64,000 nucleotides of DNA, from contig NZ_CP041661.1 of the NCBI RefSeq assembly GCF_007289895.1, positions 248,001-312,000 of the forward strand, given 5' to 3'. This document shows, piece after piece, positions 17,404 to 59,797 of the stretch (within the stretch, counting starts at the first letter, position 1; every line of letters starts with the position of its first letter). Source of the stretch: Catenovulum sediminis. GTDB taxonomy: Bacteria > Pseudomonadota > Gammaproteobacteria > Enterobacterales > Alteromonadaceae. The notes below the pieces were generated by a model, which did no database searches, was not told the DNA's origin, and saw nothing but the letters and a program-made list of their open reading frames with translations. The position numbers and the translations under genes are program-made.

Positions 17404-18180
17404 CTAGTTTGATAGCTGTGCTTCAGCTTGTTTAGTTGCCTGCTGGCAAATGGTTAAAAAGTGGTCCGGGTCTAAACTCGCGCCGCCCACTAACAAGCCG
17501 TCAATATCAGTTTGAGTCAAAAGTTGTTTAGCGTTGTCTTTATTAACACTACCACCATATAACAAACGAATTGATTGAGCTTGCGTTTCACCATATTGTG
17601 CACTTAATTCATGACGAATAAATTGATGAACTTCTTGTGCCATTTCAGGCGTTGCAGCTTTACCTGTACCAATCGCCCAGACCGGTTCATACGCGATACA
17701 AATTGAGCCATCCTCTAGTTTAATACCTTCTAAAGATTCAGTAATTTGTCTAATTAATACGTCTTTTGTGACATTGTTTTCGCGTTCTTGTTGGTTTTCG
17801 CCGACACACAATACAGGTGTTAATCCATTTTCCAGTGCTCGTTGAACTTTTATCTGGCAACTGGCATTGTTTTCTCTGAACATCGCGCGGCGCTCAGAGT
17901 GGCCTATCAAACAATATTTACAACCCGCTTCTTTTAACATCTGTGCTGAGGTTTCGCCTGTGTAAGCTCCAGAGGCGTATTTACTCACATTTTGACTACC
18001 AATATTGATTTCAGAATGTTGTAAAAAATTCAACATATCGCGGATATAGATGTAAGGCGGGCATACTACAATTTCTGCTTCGTAATGTTTCCCAATAAAT
18101 GAAGCCACCGAACTACATAAAAGATCGATACCTCCGTTTAACTTCCAGTTTGCAATGACTATAGGTCTTCTCGCATTCAT
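17404..18180 (-). CDS. tpiA: Triosephosphate isomerase
   Basis: A 258-residue TIM barrel interconverting glyceraldehyde-3-phosphate and dihydroxyacetone phosphate. Catalytic Lys in ANWKLNGG, His in IGHSERR and Glu in AYEPVWAIGTG are all present, as is the phosphate loop LYGGSVNKDNA. I choose the ATG at 18180 since AAGGG lies 7 nt upstream; a GTG two codons earlier would be too close. First gene of the tpiA-fbaA-fbp-hydratase operon. Organisms usually have a tpiA elsewhere on the chromosome, so this may be a second, catabolism-linked copy. Confidence 0.95.
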   Translation of the reverse strand: MNARRPIVIANWKLNGGIDLLCSSVASFIGKHYEAEIVVCPPYIYIRDMLNFLQHSEINIGSQNVSKYASGAYTGETSAQMLKEAGCKYCLIGHSERRAMFRENNASCQIKVQRALENGLTPVLCVGENQQERENNVTKDVLIRQITESLEGIKLEDGSICIAYEPVWAIGTGKAATPEMAQEVHQFIRHELSAQYGETQAQSIRLLYGGSVNKDNAKQLLTQTDIDGLLVGGASLDPDHFLTICQQATKQAEAQLSN

Positions 18181-18412
18181 ATTCACACCCTTGAAAAAAG
18201 AAACGTCCAGTTTAACTTTAGCTTGTCTACAAGCGACAAACTACAGAAAATTCATTTTTTTTGTCAAGCGATCAGATTTATAGCCGACGATAAGCTCTTT
18301 AGGGTGAAAAATGCGTTAAGAAAATACTTTTTATTTAGAAGGAGTACGGTGAGGAAAAACAAAACAGTAAAAATGTTACAGGTAACAATAAGTGTGTTTT
18401 CATATAAAACTT
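18181..18412. other. tpiA operon upstream region
   Basis: AT-rich leader containing the tpiA promoter on the minus strand. No gene. It contains the operator-like palindrome at 18373-18388 and abuts the 7-bp tandem repeat. Confidence 0.5.
18373..18388. promoter_or_regulatory. LacI-type (GntR-like) operator candidate
   Basis: ATGTTACAGGTAACAA is a 14-bp core palindrome with a 2-bp centre. It differs by one central base from TGTTACCGGTAACA, the operator of the LacI-family gluconate repressor GntR. It lies about 195 bp upstream of tpiA. The resemblance is from memory of the E. coli site; function is inferred. Confidence 0.45.
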
Positions 18413-18579
18413 CGAAGCTCGAAGCTCGAAGCTCGAAGCTCGAAGCTCGAAGCTCGAAGCTCGAAGCTCGAAGCTCGAAGCTCGAAGCTCGAAGCTCGAA
18501 GCTCGAAGCTCGAAGCTCGAAGCTCGAAGCTCGAAGCTCGAAGCTCGAAGCTCGAAGCTCGAAGCTCGAAGCTCGAAGC
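18413..18579. repeat. 24-copy tandem 7-bp repeat (GAAGCTC)n
   Basis: 167 bp of perfect CGAAGCT units without a single variant. Because 7 is not a multiple of 3 it is open in all frames as Ser-Lys-Leu-Glu-Ala-Arg-Ser repeats, which explains several spurious open frames here. The complementary unit GAGCTTCGAG recurs singly just before each of the long repeats at 20.8-21.3 kb. It lies between parB and the tpiA operon, just past the parB stop. Confidence 0.93.
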
Positions 18580-18604: not shown

Positions 18605-19801
18605 TTAAATAGACGAAAGTTTATCGTTGAGTAATTGATATTTTTCACTTAGCGGTAAATCTTGATATTCGCCATTTGGAAAAACGATATCAAATAAACG
18701 TGTAAACTTATTCTCATCTTTTATGATTGACGTCATTAATTTACTGGTTTGTTTTATTTTGTTGTGAATAACCAAAGTGTCAGGTTGTGCCTGAGGTTTA
18801 GGCTTAGTTGTTTCAGAGCCTTTGGCTGCCAGTTTTTTGCTTAATGCTGTACGAAATAACTCAGGATCAGACTCTAAATCAGCCAGCCCATCGACGATTG
18901 CAGAGATGCTTTCAAGTGCATAATTATCCAAAATAGATTGGTTTTGTTTAATCACATCGATGACAATTGGGCGTTTTAAAATTTTAACAATTTTAAAATA
19001 CCAAGATTTAGACAATAATAATTTTTGTCTGATTTTCACCTGATCTAAATTCTGCTTGGCTAAATGCATATACAATCGATGTTGACCAAGCAGTTTTTCA
19101 AATTTAGATTCAGTAAATTTACTATTGTTCTCAATGTATAGCTCTAACATTGAGTCGACATTATTAGGTTCTACTTCGATTTCTTGATTAGACTGCCAAC
19201 CATCCACATAAGCCAGTGCGATAACTCGTCTATGACCACCAGAGCTGATGATGTACTTTTGCCCACGAATATTCATAGTTTTGATTTTATCTTGCAACAA
19301 ACTGCCATCTTTAATGTTGTTTGTCATATCCAAAATTGAATCAACAAACTCAGCGGCTAGAGCAGATAATCGTTCATCACTAAAACGGCTAAAGATAAAC
19401 TGCTTGCCAACATATATACCGTCATCCGGTTTAAGTTGATATAACTCACGAATATCGTTTACTAAGTCTCGCTCGATACCAAATACAGATAACTCATCGT
19501 TATCTCCATCAAGGTAATCTAATATTTCATTATTGGCGACCTGCCCTGCCCAATCGGAAAATTTATTTTCGATCTCAGGCTCAGATAGTTTATCTAACGC
19601 AAACTCTTGGATGGTCGAGTCGTTAACGCGCCGAATTAAAGACGTAGCGATACGGATATTCAGCGGGTTAAATTGAATATTGTTTAATACCGTTGAGGTT
19701 GTTTTATTACTTTTAAATCGCTTTACTTCATTTATCACCGGAGCAGACGTATCTTTACCAATTGAGTCAAATGAGCGTCTTTTAGGTTTAACTTGCTCCA
19801 T
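18605..19801 (-). CDS. parB: ParB-family partition protein
   Basis: A 398-residue centromere-binding protein. The N-terminal ~60 residues are basic, the ParB/sulfiredoxin-type domain lies at about 80-220 and carries SSGGHRRVIALAYVDG, the equivalent of the ParB CTP/arginine motif (G-E/G-x-R-R), and a helical DNA-binding part follows at about 225-310 (FEKLLGQHRLYMHLAK; KIRQKLLLSKSWYFKIVKIL). The C-terminal ~70 residues should dimerise. Its ATG overlaps the parA stop by one base (TAATG). It probably binds the 16-bp RGTCTCGTACGAGACY palindromes found upstream, but that is inference from proximity. Confidence 0.88.
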   Translation of the reverse strand: MEQVKPKRRSFDSIGKDTSAPVINEVKRFKSNKTTSTVLNNIQFNPLNIRIATSLIRRVNDSTIQEFALDKLSEPEIENKFSDWAGQVANNEILDYLDGDNDELSVFGIERDLVNDIRELYQLKPDDGIYVGKQFIFSRFSDERLSALAAEFVDSILDMTNNIKDGSLLQDKIKTMNIRGQKYIISSGGHRRVIALAYVDGWQSNQEIEVEPNNVDSMLELYIENNSKFTESKFEKLLGQHRLYMHLAKQNLDQVKIRQKLLLSKSWYFKIVKILKRPIVIDVIKQNQSILDNYALESISAIVDGLADLESDPELFRTALSKKLAAKGSETTKPKPQAQPDTLVIHNKIKQTSKLMTSIIKDENKFTRLFDIVFPNGEYQDLPLSEKYQLLNDKLSSI

Positions 19802-20688
19802 TATGCAACCTCTACATCTTCTAATTTACTGTCAATCTTAGCGATAAAGTTTTTCACCATATCGTAAGTTTCCTGATTTTTTACGTACTCAAAATTATTG
19901 GGGTCATCCGGTAAAGAATACAATTCAAACGCGGTACGTTTAGTAAAAGCTTCTTGCTGAATTAAAGGGGCGGCATTTGGCATCGCAGAAAGAATTTCAT
20001 AACATGCAGATTCACGCGTGGTAAATCGTTTAGACACTTTATTTAAAAACAAGCCAACAAAATCGTGCTCTGTCTTTCGATACTGAGATTGTATATTTTG
20101 AATATCCCCTAATACGGCTGGCACGCCCTGCTCTACATTCCATAGATCTAAATTCACTGGGACTATCACTTGATCAGCAACTGCGATTGCAGCATAGGCG
20201 GCATAAGTTCTTGACGGTGGTGTGTCGATAATCATCACATCATAATCGTCTTGTACCAACTGGCATAATCCTTTGAACTGTTCGATAACAGCATTCAATG
20301 GTGTATTTTCAATTTCGCCAGATTTAAACTTACCGTTAAAGGTATCAATGCCACCATCGGATGGAATAATATTAAGGTTAGGAATAGTGGTAGGATATTC
20401 CAAAAAATCTTGTCCGTGAAAAATATCTGAAATTGAATAGGTACCACTGCGCTCACAATCAGGATGCGCAGGTAAAGGCCATTGTTCGGCTGTCTGATAA
20501 ACCGTTTGCGGAGATAAATATTTTAAAAAGTAATAAGTCGAGTTTTGTTGGCTATCACCATCTACATATAAAACTCTGCGTGGTTTAACATTTTCTCCGA
20601 TACCTTTAGCTAAATGAACGGCCAAAGTTGTACCAAAAAAAGTTTTTCCAACGCCCCCTTTTCTCGCTGCGACAGCAATCACTTTCAT
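19801..20688 (-). CDS. parA: ParA-family partition ATPase
   Basis: A 295-residue deviant-Walker ATPase. Started at the ATG at 20688 it reads MKVIAVAARKGGVGKT, placing the P-loop KGGVGKT at residues 10-16 as in type Ib ParA without an N-terminal DNA-binding domain; AGGGG lies about 9 nt upstream. Walker A' (MIIDTPPSRTYAAYAA, about 155) and the conserved VPVNLDLWNVEQG follow. It drives segregation of the replicon together with ParB, with which it overlaps. A start 14 codons earlier is possible but adds no family sequence. Confidence 0.94.
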   Translation of the reverse strand: MKVIAVAARKGGVGKTFFGTTLAVHLAKGIGENVKPRRVLYVDGDSQQNSTYYFLKYLSPQTVYQTAEQWPLPAHPDCERSGTYSISDIFHGQDFLEYPTTIPNLNIIPSDGGIDTFNGKFKSGEIENTPLNAVIEQFKGLCQLVQDDYDVMIIDTPPSRTYAAYAAIAVADQVIVPVNLDLWNVEQGVPAVLGDIQNIQSQYRKTEHDFVGLFLNKVSKRFTTRESACYEILSAMPNAAPLIQQEAFTKRTAFELYSLPDDPNNFEYVKNQETYDMVKNFIAKIDSKLEDVEVA

Positions 20689-20840
20689 TGTAATGAACCC
20701 CTTTTTTATTGTATGGGGCAATATTACCAACCGATTTCTATTTTTAATAATTTTCTTTTATTTTTATTAAAAATAGAAAACTTCGAATGCACTTTGAGAT
20801 GCATAGGTCGACGAGTTTCAAGTTTCGAGCTTCGAGCAGT
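20689..20840. other. parA upstream region
   Basis: AT-rich stretch with the minus-strand promoter of parAB (poly-T/A around 20740-20775). No gene. GAGCTTCGAG at about 20827-20836 is one copy of the motif that forms the 7-bp repeat array near parB. Confidence 0.45.
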
Positions 20841-21000
20841 GTAGGTCGACCGTTTAGGGCGACATCTTGTATATCGCAAGATTTAACAAGCTAAAACCGC
20901 GAGCTACAGGGCGGTAATATTAATTCGGTATTTGTGTTGCTTGCTTTGACGGACTAAAGTCCGACCTACATTGTCGGCGTAAACACCGCTCTACATTGTG
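20841..21000. repeat. Long direct repeat, copy A
   Basis: About 160 bp from GTAGGTCGAC through TTTAGGGCGACAT, AAAACCGCGAGCTACAGGG, the hairpin CGGACTAAAGTCCG and GTCGGCGTAAACACCG. Copies B and C follow at spacings of 193 and 229 bp. Not coding. Confidence 0.85.
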
Positions 21001-21033
21001 GTCATCCCTGTAGCGCGACGAGCTTCGAGCAAT

Positions 21034-21192
21034 GTAGGTCGACCCTTTAGGGCGACATTGTGCATATTGCAAGATTAACAGGCTAAAACCGCGAGCTACA
21101 GGGTGATAATATTAATTCGACATTTGTGTTGCTTGCTTTGACGGACTAAAGTCCGACCTACATTGTCGGCGTAAACACCGATCTACATTGTG
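21034..21192. repeat. Long direct repeat, copy B
   Basis: Nearly identical to copy A over ~159 bp, preceded by CGAGCTTCGAGC. Contains the same CGGACTAAAGTCCG hairpin. Confidence 0.85.
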
Positions 21193-21262
21193 CTCTCCCC
21201 TTTAGGGCGATAAGTTGCGAACTGTGTAGGTCGGCCCTTTAGGGCGACGAGCTTCGAGCTGT

Positions 21263-21419
21263 GTAGGTCGACCCTTTAGGGCGACATCGAGCATATCGCA
21301 AGATTTAACAGGCTAAAACCGCGAGCTACAGGGTGATAATATTAATTCGACATTTGTGTTGCTTGCTTTGACGGACTAAAGTCCGACCTACACGTCGGGC
21401 TGAAGTCGCGACCTACATT
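21263..21419. repeat. Long direct repeat, copy C
   Basis: Matches copy B until the CGGACTAAAGTCCG hairpin, then diverges to GTCGGGCTGAAGTCGCGACC. A partial extra start (GTAGGTCGGCCCTTTAGGGCGACGAGC) lies at about 21226-21252 between copies B and C. Confidence 0.82.
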
Positions 21420-21564
21420 TTAGTTTTAAGCTACGTGTTTTGAGCTACAAGTTTCGCGTCACGAGTTTCAGGTTTCGAGTTGTTGCAGCGGAGACGATTT
21501 ACAAATAAACCCGACTGCAAGCAAGGTTAGCGACTTTCAAATATTGTTAATAATACAACCAGAT

Positions 21565-21580
21565 GGTCTCGTACGAGACT
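21565..21580. promoter_or_regulatory. 16-bp palindrome, site 1 (parS or operator candidate)
   Basis: GGTCTCGTACGAGACT, core GTCTCGTACGAGAC perfectly palindromic. First of four in the origin region. Confidence 0.7.
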
Positions 21581-21702
21581 CATATAATCTATATCATCTA
21601 CTAAAAACAATCACATTCAAAAAGTCTACAAATTACTTAGCGAATCAGTAAGCAAAGCTAACAAACAGAAACGAGTAGAGACACTATAAAATAATCTACA
21701 AT

Positions 21703-21750
21703 TAAATAAGTAAATAAGTAAATAAGTAAATAAGTAAATAAGTAAATAAG
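21703..21750. repeat. Six tandem 8-bp iterons (TAAATAAG)
   Basis: Six perfect head-to-tail TAAATAAG units followed by a partial TAAAG. The AT-only sequence could serve as initiator-binding iterons or as an easily melted element. Confidence 0.85.
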
Positions 21751-21935
21751 TAAAGTTTGAAATGCGGCCTAAAAACGCTCTACAAAACAGTGTATGATTT
21801 TATGATCAAGTTTGTAAATTTCGTCCACTTACTCAATTCTCCGGAGCCAAACTCGAAATACTTTATAATACGTTCAATGGGCTGAATAAGCAGTATATAA
21901 ATGAAATCAATACACTCAGTATAAAACGCCTTAAC

Positions 21936-21951
21936 AGTCTCGTACGAGACT
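21936..21951. promoter_or_regulatory. 16-bp palindrome, site 2
   Basis: AGTCTCGTACGAGACT, fully palindromic over 16 bp. Confidence 0.7.
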
Positions 21952-22035
21952 CATACACTCAAATTGCCCTGTTAATTATTATATAGCTAGTCTCTTATTC
22001 GTTCATTTAACAAAATAATCGCAACGCAACTTGCA

Positions 22036-22051
22036 GGTCTCGTACGAGACC
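22036..22051. promoter_or_regulatory. 16-bp palindrome, site 3
   Basis: GGTCTCGTACGAGACC, fully palindromic over 16 bp, exactly 100 bp after site 2. Confidence 0.7.
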
Positions 22052-22512
22052 TTTGTGAAAAGTTACACACTTATCTAACCTAATAACAAAGTATATGTAT
22101 GTTCAAATACTGACTTCAGGCAAGATTAAAACAAGCATGGCTCAGAACTAAGGCAGTTAAAGGAAATATTAAGTTTAAAATGATGGGGGCTGTTTGTCTT
22201 TCGAGTACAATTTTTTTCCTAACTGAACGTTTTCATATCGCGGCGCGGGGGCTGTAGTATAGTTATACTGTGTGAGTATTTTCACCCATTAGCCAAACAA
22301 AGAGTTGGAAGCGTTCAGGTCGCACGATCTGCATTGCATAAAAATTAACACACAAAATTCTAATCCGAACGCAAGATAACAAACAAGTCTGATACAGTTA
22401 ATTTACGATTATTCGTATAACTGAAGTTGCTATTTAAGCTTATCCGAATTAATTCCTCCGTTTGACTTATGTACTTAATCAACTTACCCACTTAATTAAG
22501 TTACAATAAATG

Positions 22513-22528
22513 AGTCTCGTACGAGACC
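22513..22528. promoter_or_regulatory. 16-bp palindrome, site 4, upstream of rep-like gene
   Basis: AGTCTCGTACGAGACC, ending 24 bp before the start of the putative initiator gene, a position suited to autoregulation. Confidence 0.7.
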
Positions 22529-22552
22529 AATCTTAAAGAAACTCCAAAGGGT

Positions 22553-23710
22553 TTGAGAAAAAACAACATGCTGAGAGATCTAAACCAAGAAATTGATTTA
22601 AACAAATTAGGGAAACCACCCTACTTAGATCTATCTAACCTAAACCAAAATATTGAAGTAGAGCAGTTTAATAACTCACAAATTTTGTTTTACCAAGCCG
22701 CTAAAGAACTAAAGGCAGATAACGAACATATTGTTTCATTAAACAAAATTGCTGATAGAGTAGGGCGTAAATTAATAACCGTACGTTTGCTTGCTTTAGA
22801 GCTTTGTGAACAAGGTATTCTAGTGCGCAACAAGTGCAAGGGTAGGGGCAATAAGCCCATCGATTTGTTTACTTTCGCAAAAAACCAGAGTGTAGATTTA
22901 TTCCTTAAGCAAAACGTTAACCATCAAAAACGACTGAAACATTTTACGGAACTGTTTTGTGGCAACTGGGTAGGGCTGTTGCTGACGGAACGTAAATCAA
23001 CAAAAATCAAAATATTAACTGACGCTATTGATGCGAAAACAACTGACAAGATAGATTACTTTGATTTGGTTATATTTGTAAAATTACTAGCGCGAGTACA
23101 CGAATATAAAATTAGCCAACTTGAATTATATAAAGATGGTGAAATAGCCTCTGCTGACATGTTAAACAGCAAAATCACTTTAGATGTTTCTGCTGTTCAC
23201 AAAGATCAAAAACACCTACTTTCAAGATTGCAAAAGTTATCTGAGCTTAAAATAAGTTACCAACTCGACCGATATTTTTTTTATAGCCGATTTATACAAT
23301 TAAACTGGATATGCCAAGAACAAAATCAATTATGGATTGAGTTTGAATTAAGTGCATCGACAGTCGCGAGTCTAGTTGAATCAAGTTATAAAAACGCCTT
23401 TAAACTAATAGAATTTTGGCAAAATTTAGAAACTGACACACACAAAAATCGTCTAAAAATTTGGCTAATTCTATATTTTGTTTTAAATAATAAGCAAAAA
23501 ATAAGTATGAGTTTGACGGAACTTACTGACTTAATCGGGCTGGGGAGTCATTTAGACCAGGCGTTAACTAAGGAGCTAAAGGACGGGCTAATTATTAGAT
23601 TTCAAAAAGCGCATGAAAACACCGAGTTAAGTAAACACCTAAATATCAAGCAAATTAGTAGATTTAAATTACTATTAGATAATGGTATTTTTATTTGTGA
23701 AGCGAACTAA
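22553..23710 (+). CDS. Putative replication initiator (winged-helix type)
   Basis: A 385-residue protein I cannot place firmly in a named Rep family. Evidence for an initiator is positional: it follows an iteron- and palindrome-bearing AT-rich region and lies divergent from parAB. Two possible winged-helix modules are visible: about residues 40-105 (ILFYQAAKELKADNEHIVSLNKIADRVGRKLITVRLLALELCEQGILV) and about 265-370 (YKNAFKLIEFWQNLE...ISMSLTELTDLIGL), an arrangement like the tandem WH domains of RepA/RepE-type initiators. The start is either TTG 22553 or ATG 22568; neither has ideal ribosome-site spacing. Alternative: a replicon-encoded transcription regulator. Confidence 0.6.
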   Translation: MRKNNMLRDLNQEIDLNKLGKPPYLDLSNLNQNIEVEQFNNSQILFYQAAKELKADNEHIVSLNKIADRVGRKLITVRLLALELCEQGILVRNKCKGRGNKPIDLFTFAKNQSVDLFLKQNVNHQKRLKHFTELFCGNWVGLLLTERKSTKIKILTDAIDAKTTDKIDYFDLVIFVKLLARVHEYKISQLELYKDGEIASADMLNSKITLDVSAVHKDQKHLLSRLQKLSELKISYQLDRYFFYSRFIQLNWICQEQNQLWIEFELSASTVASLVESSYKNAFKLIEFWQNLETDTHKNRLKIWLILYFVLNNKQKISMSLTELTDLIGLGSHLDQALTKELKDGLIIRFQKAHENTELSKHLNIKQISRFKLLLDNGIFICEAN

Positions 23711-23729
23711 AAAGCTTAACTAAATATTG

Positions 23730-23745
23730 AGTCTCGTACGAGACT
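23730..23745. promoter_or_regulatory. 16-bp palindrome, site 5, between rep-like gene and next gene
   Basis: AGTCTCGTACGAGACT, located 20 bp after the rep-like stop and 19 bp before the ATG of the following gene. Confidence 0.7.
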
Positions 23746-23764
23746 ATCAGAAAAGGAAACATTT

Positions 23765-24661
23765 ATGAGTTGGTTTTTTGATACACAGTTTAAAGCTATC
23801 AAACAACAAACACTTGCGTCATATCAAAAACTAACCGGCAAAGCCGCCGTGTTTTCTAAAGTCATAAGCGGTTTGCCTCTACTCGCATCAGCTGAAGTGT
23901 CGACAGATACAAAATACGATGACAAACACTATTTTGTAATTCCATTCAAATTATCAGAACATGGTGTCGCATTACACACAATGAGGTCTTTACCTGAAGG
24001 TGTGCCGGAATTCAACGACCTGCCCAAACGAAGAATATTCCATTTCGCCAACCCGCATGGCGAAGCTCAATTAAAAGAATTATTGCTGAAACAAGCGATT
24101 GATACAGTAACAGAAAAATCACAGGGGAATATCAGTACCTTAGAATCACTCGCCGACAGCATAGATGCAATCGATAGCAAATTAACTTATGGAATGTTAT
24201 TAGTAGGCGGATTGGCTGCTCTAGTTAATCCGATATTGGGTGCAGGTATTGCTGCAAAAGCGATTATTCCAAGTGCATCGGGATTGCTCAACAAACACGG
24301 AATTCGCCCACTTGGAGAAAAACTAACGCAAAAACAACTTGAAACTGAAATCAATCAAGCACAAAAAAATATTCAGGCACAATTTTCTGAAGCAAACACA
24401 TTAAAAATAATTAACCCTATTTTGCAAGAATTAGAATTCACCCTAAACACAACAGAGCAACAACACGACCCTCTAATAGATTTTGATCTTTCAAAACTTA
24501 ATATTGAAGAACTTGCTGAAAATTATTGGCGTGAACACACAATAACAGCCATCAAGCATGTATACAACGAAGTGCTAAAAAACCCCAAGCTGCAAACTAA
24601 AGCACACTTGGAAGCAAAAACGCTGCGTTGGTTAAAGGTAATGTTGACCCAGCAAAGTTAA
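23765..24661 (+). CDS. Unknown protein with Gly/Ala-rich hydrophobic segment, in the rep region
   Basis: A 298-residue protein of unrecognised family. AAGGA lies 8 nt before the ATG and site 5 of the palindrome family is immediately upstream, so it may share control with the rep-like gene. Residues ~100-135 are predicted helical and amphipathic, and residues ~138-170 form a Gly/Ala-rich hydrophobic stretch (YGMLLVGGLAALVNPILGAG) that could be one or two membrane helices, resembling the membrane-inserting part of EcsC-like or colicin-like proteins; the similarity is only in character. The C-terminal third is charged and helical. Replicon maintenance is a guess. Confidence 0.5.
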   Translation: MSWFFDTQFKAIKQQTLASYQKLTGKAAVFSKVISGLPLLASAEVSTDTKYDDKHYFVIPFKLSEHGVALHTMRSLPEGVPEFNDLPKRRIFHFANPHGEAQLKELLLKQAIDTVTEKSQGNISTLESLADSIDAIDSKLTYGMLLVGGLAALVNPILGAGIAAKAIIPSASGLLNKHGIRPLGEKLTQKQLETEINQAQKNIQAQFSEANTLKIINPILQELEFTLNTTEQQHDPLIDFDLSKLNIEELAENYWREHTITAIKHVYNEVLKNPKLQTKAHLEAKTLRWLKVMLTQQS

Positions 24662-59456: not shown

Positions 59457-59797
59457 CAACATTTGTGTTTATACCGCTTACTAGGGTCTCGCACGAGACC
59501 CTATGCACCTTCGTTTAGCTTTAATCAATGTTTTATCCTTTACCGCAAAGACACCATAGCAGCCTACAAAAAGATATCTAATCCTTCACTCGCACAAATT
59601 TTGTGAACAATGCACAGTTAACCAACAGCAAAAACGAAGGTAAACTAATTGCTTTAAAATTGTTATTAATTTTCAAATATAGTAACGCATTCTCACATCA
59701 TGTTGACCGCATCAGCATGTCTTGCGTATCGGATTTCTATTAGCTATGTGGTCGCAACACCCGATAGGATTTATGAGGTAAAAGAAGGAGACTTTCT
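59457..59797. other. Intergenic region with isolated palindrome
   Basis: About 340 bp between GH50 and the LuxR-type gene. Contains palindrome site 6; otherwise AT-rich without a gene. The promoter of the small regulator should lie at about 59690-59780. Confidence 0.5.
59485..59500. promoter_or_regulatory. 16-bp palindrome, site 6 (variant), distant from origin
   Basis: GGTCTCGCACGAGACC, one central base different from the origin sites; with its flanks it is TAGGGTCTCG-CA-CGAGACCCTA, also capable of forming a hairpin 29 bp after the GH50 stop. Confidence 0.5.

Follow-up and report, generated by a model that had tools for sequence, protein, structure and literature searches.

A putative parABS partition module, most likely remote from the replication origin, on a 759-kb secondary replicon of Catenovulum sediminis

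The 64,000-nucleotide stretch analysed here, referred to as the window (C2:248001-312000), belongs to the smaller of the two contigs, C1 (4,108,962 bp) and C2 (NZ_CP041661.1, 759,041 bp), that make up the 4,868,003-bp genome of Catenovulum sediminis. Within it lie two leftward genes, parB and parA, overlapping by one base, followed by a non-coding stretch of about 1.82-1.88 kb, a divergent gene designated rep385 and a further open reading frame (ORF) (Table 1). An earlier sequence-only reading had taken this divergent arrangement of parAB and a rep-like ORF around some 1.8 kb of non-coding DNA, with its palindromes and the six-copy repeat TAAATAAG, for the origin and partition module of a secondary replicon. 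The genes, the non-coding stretch, the repeat and the palindromes are all present as described, and the locus is judged, with considerable confidence, to be the parABS module of the 759-kb replicon; it would lie about 134 kb from the origin, near C2 404 kb, with rep385 as a partner of the par genes. The system is of an ordinary kind, parABS; what is unusual is its place and its companion gene.

Judged from its sequence, the product of parA is a clear partition ATPase, matching AAA_31 (1.5e-25) and the PHROG ParA-like partition protein (2.5e-32) and being 76-78% identical to its counterparts in C. agarivorans. The putative ParB is 48-50% identical to the product of the same-position gene in C. 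agarivorans YM01 and DS-2, and its GGHRR and ENNSK stretches, read by eye and presumably ParB motifs, are invariant in all three genomes. In a more distant genome (G010), a parA relative at 44% is followed by a gene with a weak 24% match to the window ParB. C. sediminis WS1-A NZ_CP041661.1 was left out of one study for want of a ParBc hit (PMC10272867). The partition module claimed by the sequence-only reading is borne out by the ParA ATPase gene and by a repeated palindrome near parAB that is confined to this locus; the overlapping parB-like gene is conserved in place in the three species.

That palindrome, the 14-bp GTCTCGTACGAGAC, occurs in five exact copies in the whole genome, all of them here; none of the other perfect 14-bp palindromes on C2, which number 79 with this one, exceeds two copies. 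Among 60 genomes it was found in three, namely those with this parAB-rep385 arrangement, and was absent from the other 57; a search of 12 genomes with GTCTCGYRCGAGAC returned 15 sites (seven in the present genome and four each in YM01 and DS-2), all on module-bearing contigs, and none in the other nine genomes. In both C. agarivorans genomes, sites fall in the parA-rep385 gap and within parB itself, and YM01 has a further one 112 bp beyond parB. Because GTCTCGTACGAGAC is confined to the parAB-rep385 loci of three genomes and stands around the par genes, it follows the pattern of a parS centromere, and from this distribution it is very probably the parS of the module. A full-text literature search did not find GTCTCGTACGAGAC in print, and a search for Catenovulum together with parS returned no paper titled on that subject; the locus therefore supplies a candidate parS sequence that such a search does not find in print.

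The placing of one site 40 bp ahead of rep385 and of another 20 bp ahead of the gene after it, together with the DNA-binding domain that Rep385 seems to carry, would also suit operators of a winged-helix autorepressor, with ParB binding elsewhere and the place of the origin left open. Such a role is considered improbable, given that the site is identical in three species though Rep385 is only 27-28% identical and ParB about 50%, and that copies fall inside parB in both C. agarivorans strains and past parB in YM01.

Table 1. Features of the partition locus (window positions) and of the proposed C2 origin (C2 positions)
Feature	Coordinates	Strand	Description
parB	18605..19801	-	398-aa ParB-like protein; assigned by position and motif
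parA	19801..20688	-	295-aa Walker-type partition ATPase, ATG start; TTG at 20730 also possible
Three-repeat block	20807..21478		between parA and parS site 1; partly built on REP-like dispersed motif
parS site 1	21566..21579		exact copy of GTCTCGTACGAGAC, putative parS
Tandem TAAATAAG	21703..21750	+	six copies of 8 bp
parS site 2	21937..21950		exact copy of GTCTCGTACGAGAC, putative parS
parS site 3	22037..22050		exact copy of GTCTCGTACGAGAC, putative parS
parS site 4	22514..22527		exact copy of GTCTCGTACGAGAC, putative parS; 40 bp upstream of rep385 ATG
rep385	22568..23710	+	putative winged-helix protein, 380 aa from ATG; 385 aa from TTG 22553
parS site 5	23731..23744		exact copy of GTCTCGTACGAGAC, putative parS; between rep385 and next gene, 20 bp before latter's ATG
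Orphan ORF	23765..24661	+	298 aa, downstream of rep385
One-mismatch parS-like site	59486..59499 (C2:307486)		GTCTCGCACGAGAC; about 36 kb from last parS
Proposed origin (L048)	C2:403128-407108		Rep375, 12 iterons, DnaA-like boxes, Tus-like gene, 198-aa gene
Rep375	C2:403128-404255	-	375-aa RepA-type candidate initiator
Iterons	C2:404369-404954		12 copies, about 21 bp, upstream of Rep375
Tus-like gene	C2:405427-406323		NCBIfam Tus model 2.7e-8, below cut-off

The long repeats at 20.8-21.5 kb, which the sequence-only reading had called iterons, are three units about 190-230 bp apart. A 24-mer of the unit is dispersed: allowing up to four mismatches, C2 has 22 copies, of which four are in this region, and a 252-kb sample of the chromosome has 20. 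Other stretches of the unit, a 23-mer and a 19-mer (up to three mismatches), were found three times on C2, in this region alone, and once in that sample. The tandem TAAATAAG has its sole place on C2 here and was absent from the 252-kb sample. No DnaA-box-like site was found in the intergenic region, and the window holds no match at score 18 to the iterons of the proposed C2 origin. In the relatives, the gap between parA and rep385 measures 2.2 kb in DS-2 and just 278 bp in YM01, where two parS sites lie inside it. The identification of the repeats as iterons was rejected on the partly dispersed REP-like motif, the lack of DnaA-like boxes and the short YM01 gap; neither an initiator of known family nor iterons and DnaA boxes kept in relatives, as expected of an iteron-type origin, were found at the region. 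Repeat density alone is not decisive, because in a C2 scan for 19-mers repeated within 1.2 kb both the array at 404 kb (score 7) and the window region (score 5) fell below simple-sequence and other repeats. A separate tandem repeat, with the 7-bp unit TCGAAGC, lies at 18410-18579 of the window, and similar repeats occur at C2 164-170, 556 and 586 kb.

Rep385 gave no match in Pfam or NCBIfam at E 1, in PHROGs or PADLOC at E 0.1, or among plasmids at E 0.01. Of the 196 relatives searched, just two, C. agarivorans DS-2 and YM01, had homologues (27-28% identical), each of them adjacent to parAB. A first scan of genome contigs with the window rep385 alone found no relative in 16 candidate stretches; a second, alignment-based, found two rep385 loci, both in C. 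agarivorans, and a rep385 profile run against 369 genomes of the class gave, besides the present genome, just two weak matches with internal stops. The DS-2 and YM01 homologues resemble the HrcA winged helix (3e-4, just under the Pfam cut-off), and an alignment-based AF2 model of Rep385, of low confidence (pLDDT 58.9), has an N-terminal winged helix among its better parts. Foldseek with this model returned no match at E 0.001, and the profile run against the PDB reached at best E 0.53, to a helix-turn-helix (HTH) repressor; neither profile nor structure searches assigned the protein to an initiator family. In identity between YM01 and DS-2, Rep385 is the lowest of six proteins compared (ParA 92%, Rep_3 89%, ParB 69%, p191 56%, Tus 53%, Rep385 41%), and by these comparisons rep385 is a genus-restricted and fast-evolving gene. 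This low conservation argues that it encodes a partition partner and not an initiator, as does the fact that rep385 stays with parAB where module and origin separate; it is probably a DNA-binding partner or partition regulator of the par module. Within the searches made, this probable winged-helix partition partner is found in one genus only. The orphan ORF downstream has no Pfam, PHROG or plasmid match and no counterpart in the two C. agarivorans loci (L027, L028). Another parAB divergent from a winged-helix-like protein, of 488 aa and followed by an HTH_36 protein, was seen in a further genome (G022; L030:8984-14284), the similarity of the 488-aa protein to Rep385 not being significant (probability 1.5).

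The sequence-only reading had made the 385-aa protein an initiator and the region an origin. In a version of that idea, Rep385 would be a diverged initiator with two winged helices, and its site of action, the 1.8-kb intergenic region, would be the true origin or a second one, C2 then having two. The long repeat-bearing non-coding region would fit, as would the N-terminal winged helix and a possible C-terminal one in the low-confidence model, the adjacency of rep385 to an origin candidate in C. agarivorans, and the presence of DnaD (rank 2, E 0.038), RepE (rank 14, E 0.22) and primosomal DnaB (rank 18) among the weak Foldseek matches; a PHROG match of the DS-2 homologue to "replication initiation" (E 0.097) is a further faint hint. 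Such an origin is nevertheless held to be distinctly improbable in view of the 278-bp gap in YM01, the absence of DnaA-like boxes at the window region, the poor conservation of rep385, the lack of any visible change in GC skew at 270 kb, and the separate Rep_3-like initiator, with iteron-like repeats before its gene, in both C. agarivorans loci. Rep385 as the main initiator was rejected on its fast drift, its staying with par and the separate initiator candidates in C2 and in C. agarivorans; on C2, the initiator candidate Rep375 belongs to a better origin candidate 134 kb away.

At this second site, all the features expected of a RepA/iteron origin (an initiator homologue, iterons and a DnaA box) were found. 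Rep375 is 80% identical to the product of the first gene of pCadTS8_2, a circular replicon of 646,854 bp from C. adriaticum (NZ_CP109967.1), and has counterparts about 80% identical in three of the seven other genomes of the genus (G001, G005 and G007, the last being C. adriaticum TS8; in the same numbering the present genome is G000, YM01 is G003 and DS-2 is G006). Among 72,556 plasmid records, 247 gave a match to it, and some of the matches listed are annotated as replication protein or replication protein A. The iteron motif recurs upstream of the Rep375 gene in the same three genomes, and four DnaA-like boxes, one of them perfect, lie in a 1.17-kb region at C2 404 kb. The Tus-like protein is 40% identical to a Tus-family protein of DS-2, and the 198-aa gene that follows has a relative which also adjoins the C. 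agarivorans origin; a homologue of Rep375 in Pseudoalteromonas xiamenensis (27%) stands between an AAA ATPase matching ParA and a Tus gene. On these sequence features, C2 replication most likely starts near 404.3-405 kb, about 134 kb from the par module. The only other iteron cluster on C2 at score 18 or above is at C2:49078-49505 (L033), where five Rep375 iterons point the opposite way, almost diametrically across C2 from the proposed origin at a distance of 355 kb; a titration or timing locus is one guess as to its nature.

In G001, G005 and C. adriaticum TS8, the Rep375 gene is preceded by its own parAB, and no Tus gene was found in the flanks searched (19 kb in each of the first two, 24.9 kb in the third). 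This Rep375-type parAB was not found on C2: for its parA the search reached only the parA of the window, at 19%, and for its parB it gave no match. Both C. agarivorans strains carry the order parB, parA, rep385, iteron-like repeats, Rep_3-like gene, Tus-family gene and 191/205-aa gene; the present genome has no match to their Rep_3-like protein, and relatives of their tus and small gene stand beside Rep375 on C2. As judged by these gene matches, the C. agarivorans-like block is split on C2, with par and rep385 at 268-272 kb and tus and the small gene at 405-407 kb, and its par module stands in for the parAB that accompanies Rep375 in related species. A more specific course of events, in which the resident parAB was lost, a foreign parABS-rep385 was placed 134 kb into a single replichore and replication switched to one way beside a newly acquired Tus gene, is offered tentatively and seems somewhat unlikely; were it true, C2 would have arrived independently at an arrangement like that of pAMI4 and Allorhizobium vitis chromosome 2 (Chr2), and rep385 would be a new kind of partition co-factor.

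The GC skew of C2 is nearly of one sign, negative in 70 of its 76 10-kb bins, positive in five and zero in one, and because of this one-way replication is suggested, likely running leftwards. This one-sign skew, as expected of a unidirectional chromid, becomes weaker once split by gene strand. At a 2-kb scale, positive bins predominate at C2 400-408 and 418-436 kb, a zone that includes the proposed origin and extends to its right, and the bins separating these two stretches are negative; the GGGNAGGG octamers of C2 number 8 versus 24. By comparison, the skew of pCadTS8_2 is two-sided, all 11 of 11 stretches on one side being positive and 9 of 9 on the opposite side negative, and pCadTS8_1 gave 8 of 8 and 8 of 8 on its two sides.

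The window region is part of a separate, chromid-like secondary replicon of a seaweed-degrading marine Catenovulum, as the sequence-only reading had supposed; the window lies on C2 and outside the main chromosome, contrary to the placement that would have refuted that reading. Both DnaA-family matches and all six 16S rRNA genes fall on C1, with dnaA at 1.586 Mb. The ends of C2 meet inside an open flagellar-hook-like frame (named by eye), from which a circular C2 is likely, the join falling in a repeat whose other copy, at C2:674,863-680,294, is 97.6% identical over at least 5.4 kb; a flagellar-type gene block (names by eye) is accordingly duplicated on C2, at the end-join and at C2:674863-680294. 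In 20 sampled stretches, the skew of C1 is positive in 9 of 10 at 1.6-3.4 Mb (the exception, at 1.8 Mb, being -0.018) and negative in 10 of 10 elsewhere; by these flips its arms measure about 2.2 and 1.9 Mb without C2, and from the sampled signs and the position of dnaA C1 is roughly balanced on its own. That C2 is instead a piece of chromosomal arm left apart by the assembly, its parAB a remnant of an integrated plasmid, was rejected as very improbable: its nearly one-sign skew does resemble one replichore, and no open frame of at least 100 aa crosses the end-join of C1, leaving the closure of C1 unsupported, but the C2 ends join in an ORF, the C1 arms roughly balance without it, and C2 has its own iterons, Tus-like gene and initiator candidate, the last 80% identical to that of a circular 646,854-bp plasmid.

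The idea that C2 arose by simple fusion of two replicons of the C. adriaticum type was likewise rejected, from ORF matches to pCadTS8_2 and pCadTS8_1: at 60% identity or above, C2 ORFs gave 35 matches in 252,854 bases of the former and 9 in 160,000 bases of the latter, parts of both having been compared, and the single pCadTS8_1 match near the par locus is tpiA. The triosephosphate isomerase gene of the window (17404-18186, named by eye) has a second copy on C2, 86% alike, and a third on C1 (45%), and because of these copies it need not be essential.

With an off-origin parABS module preferred, the following would be expected from the families concerned. ParB would load on the five GTCTCGTACGAGAC sites, ParA would pull the ParB-parS complexes apart along the nucleoid, and the copies upstream of rep385 may let ParB regulate promoters there. 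At C2 404.3-405 kb, beside the Tus-like gene, the RepA-type initiator would bind its 21-bp iterons, probably with DnaA, and a single fork would travel leftwards round almost the whole of C2, reaching the centromere early.

Several observations weigh against parts of this picture, in addition to the Foldseek and PHROG hints of a replication function for Rep385. No partition family in Pfam, NCBIfam or PHROGs matches ParB, and a PDB sequence search gave none at E 1, so that its assignment comes from the place of the gene and from a by-eye motif; AF2 modelled it poorly (pLDDT 48.5). Two outlying one-mismatch sites, at C2:243567 and C2:307486, each stand immediately after the end of a gene, within a longer hairpin, and could be terminators. 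Rep375 is named by no family library, and its closest relative is annotated as a hypothetical protein; the case for it as initiator rests on more distant annotated initiators and on the iterons. The skew of C2 is close to zero across 330-470 kb and stems partly from gene strand (280 minus versus 153 plus ORFs): third-position skew is -0.11 for plus and 0.00 for minus genes, weaker than on the chromosome with its -0.19/-0.10 and +0.10/+0.10, and by halves (plus/minus genes) it is -0.10/-0.03 left of the origin and -0.13/+0.03 right of it. A dif search of C2, with an E. coli consensus as query, gave only matches with at least eight mismatches. Lastly, the contig of YM01, which has Tus next to its origin, flips in skew near 120 kb; because of this, Tus alone is no predictor of one-way replication, and the equation of Tus beside the origin with a unidirectional replicon was rejected.

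In large bacterial replicons the centromere as a rule stays close to the origin (PMC9040568), and on the question of whether it has to, this locus would offer a natural separation of the two; a probable off-origin centromere on a probably unidirectional chromid is the interesting part of it. Clusters of parS away from the origin are described for pAMI4, at 11.5 kb from repC, and for A. vitis Chr2, at 30-90 kb, and the authors speculate that they are tied to a specific replication mode (PMC9040568); single-slope coverage is reported in pAMI4 and A. ampelinum Chr2 (PMC13342612). Among the papers listed in literature searches, none joins off-origin parS with single-slope coverage in its title or abstract opening.

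Nearest to the present module is that of C. agarivorans YM01 and DS-2, which shares the parB-parA order, the divergent rep385 and an identical parS sequence; there, however, the module is contiguous with iteron-like repeats, a Rep_3-like initiator, and Tus-family and 191/205-aa genes, whereas the C2 candidate origin is 134 kb off. In the Pseudoalteromonas chromid, RepA and ori2 were shown to replicate, and RepA, ori2, Tus and parA2B2 form one cluster (PMC7858055); Catenovulum matches to its ParA, ParB and RepA have been reported (PMC8496264). C2 resembles it, by way of the 27% identical P. xiamenensis homologue, in the RepA-type initiator, the Tus gene beside it and the one-sign skew, and differs in that parA2B2 adjoins ori2 there, the C2 par module being of another type and off-origin (PMC7858055). 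With pAMI4 and A. vitis Chr2, C2 shares an extended non-coding region, distant from the initiator, that holds several parS (PMC9040568); those are repABC replicons with the partition genes in the initiator operon, whereas parA, parB and parS of C2 are all off-origin. pCadTS8_2, with an 80% identical initiator and the same iteron motif, differs from C2 in having its own parAB beside the initiator, no Tus in the 24.9-kb flanks searched and a two-sided skew. Because relatives thus keep an 80% identical initiator beside their own parAB, one of them with a two-way skew, the speculated link between off-origin parS and replication mode becomes testable.

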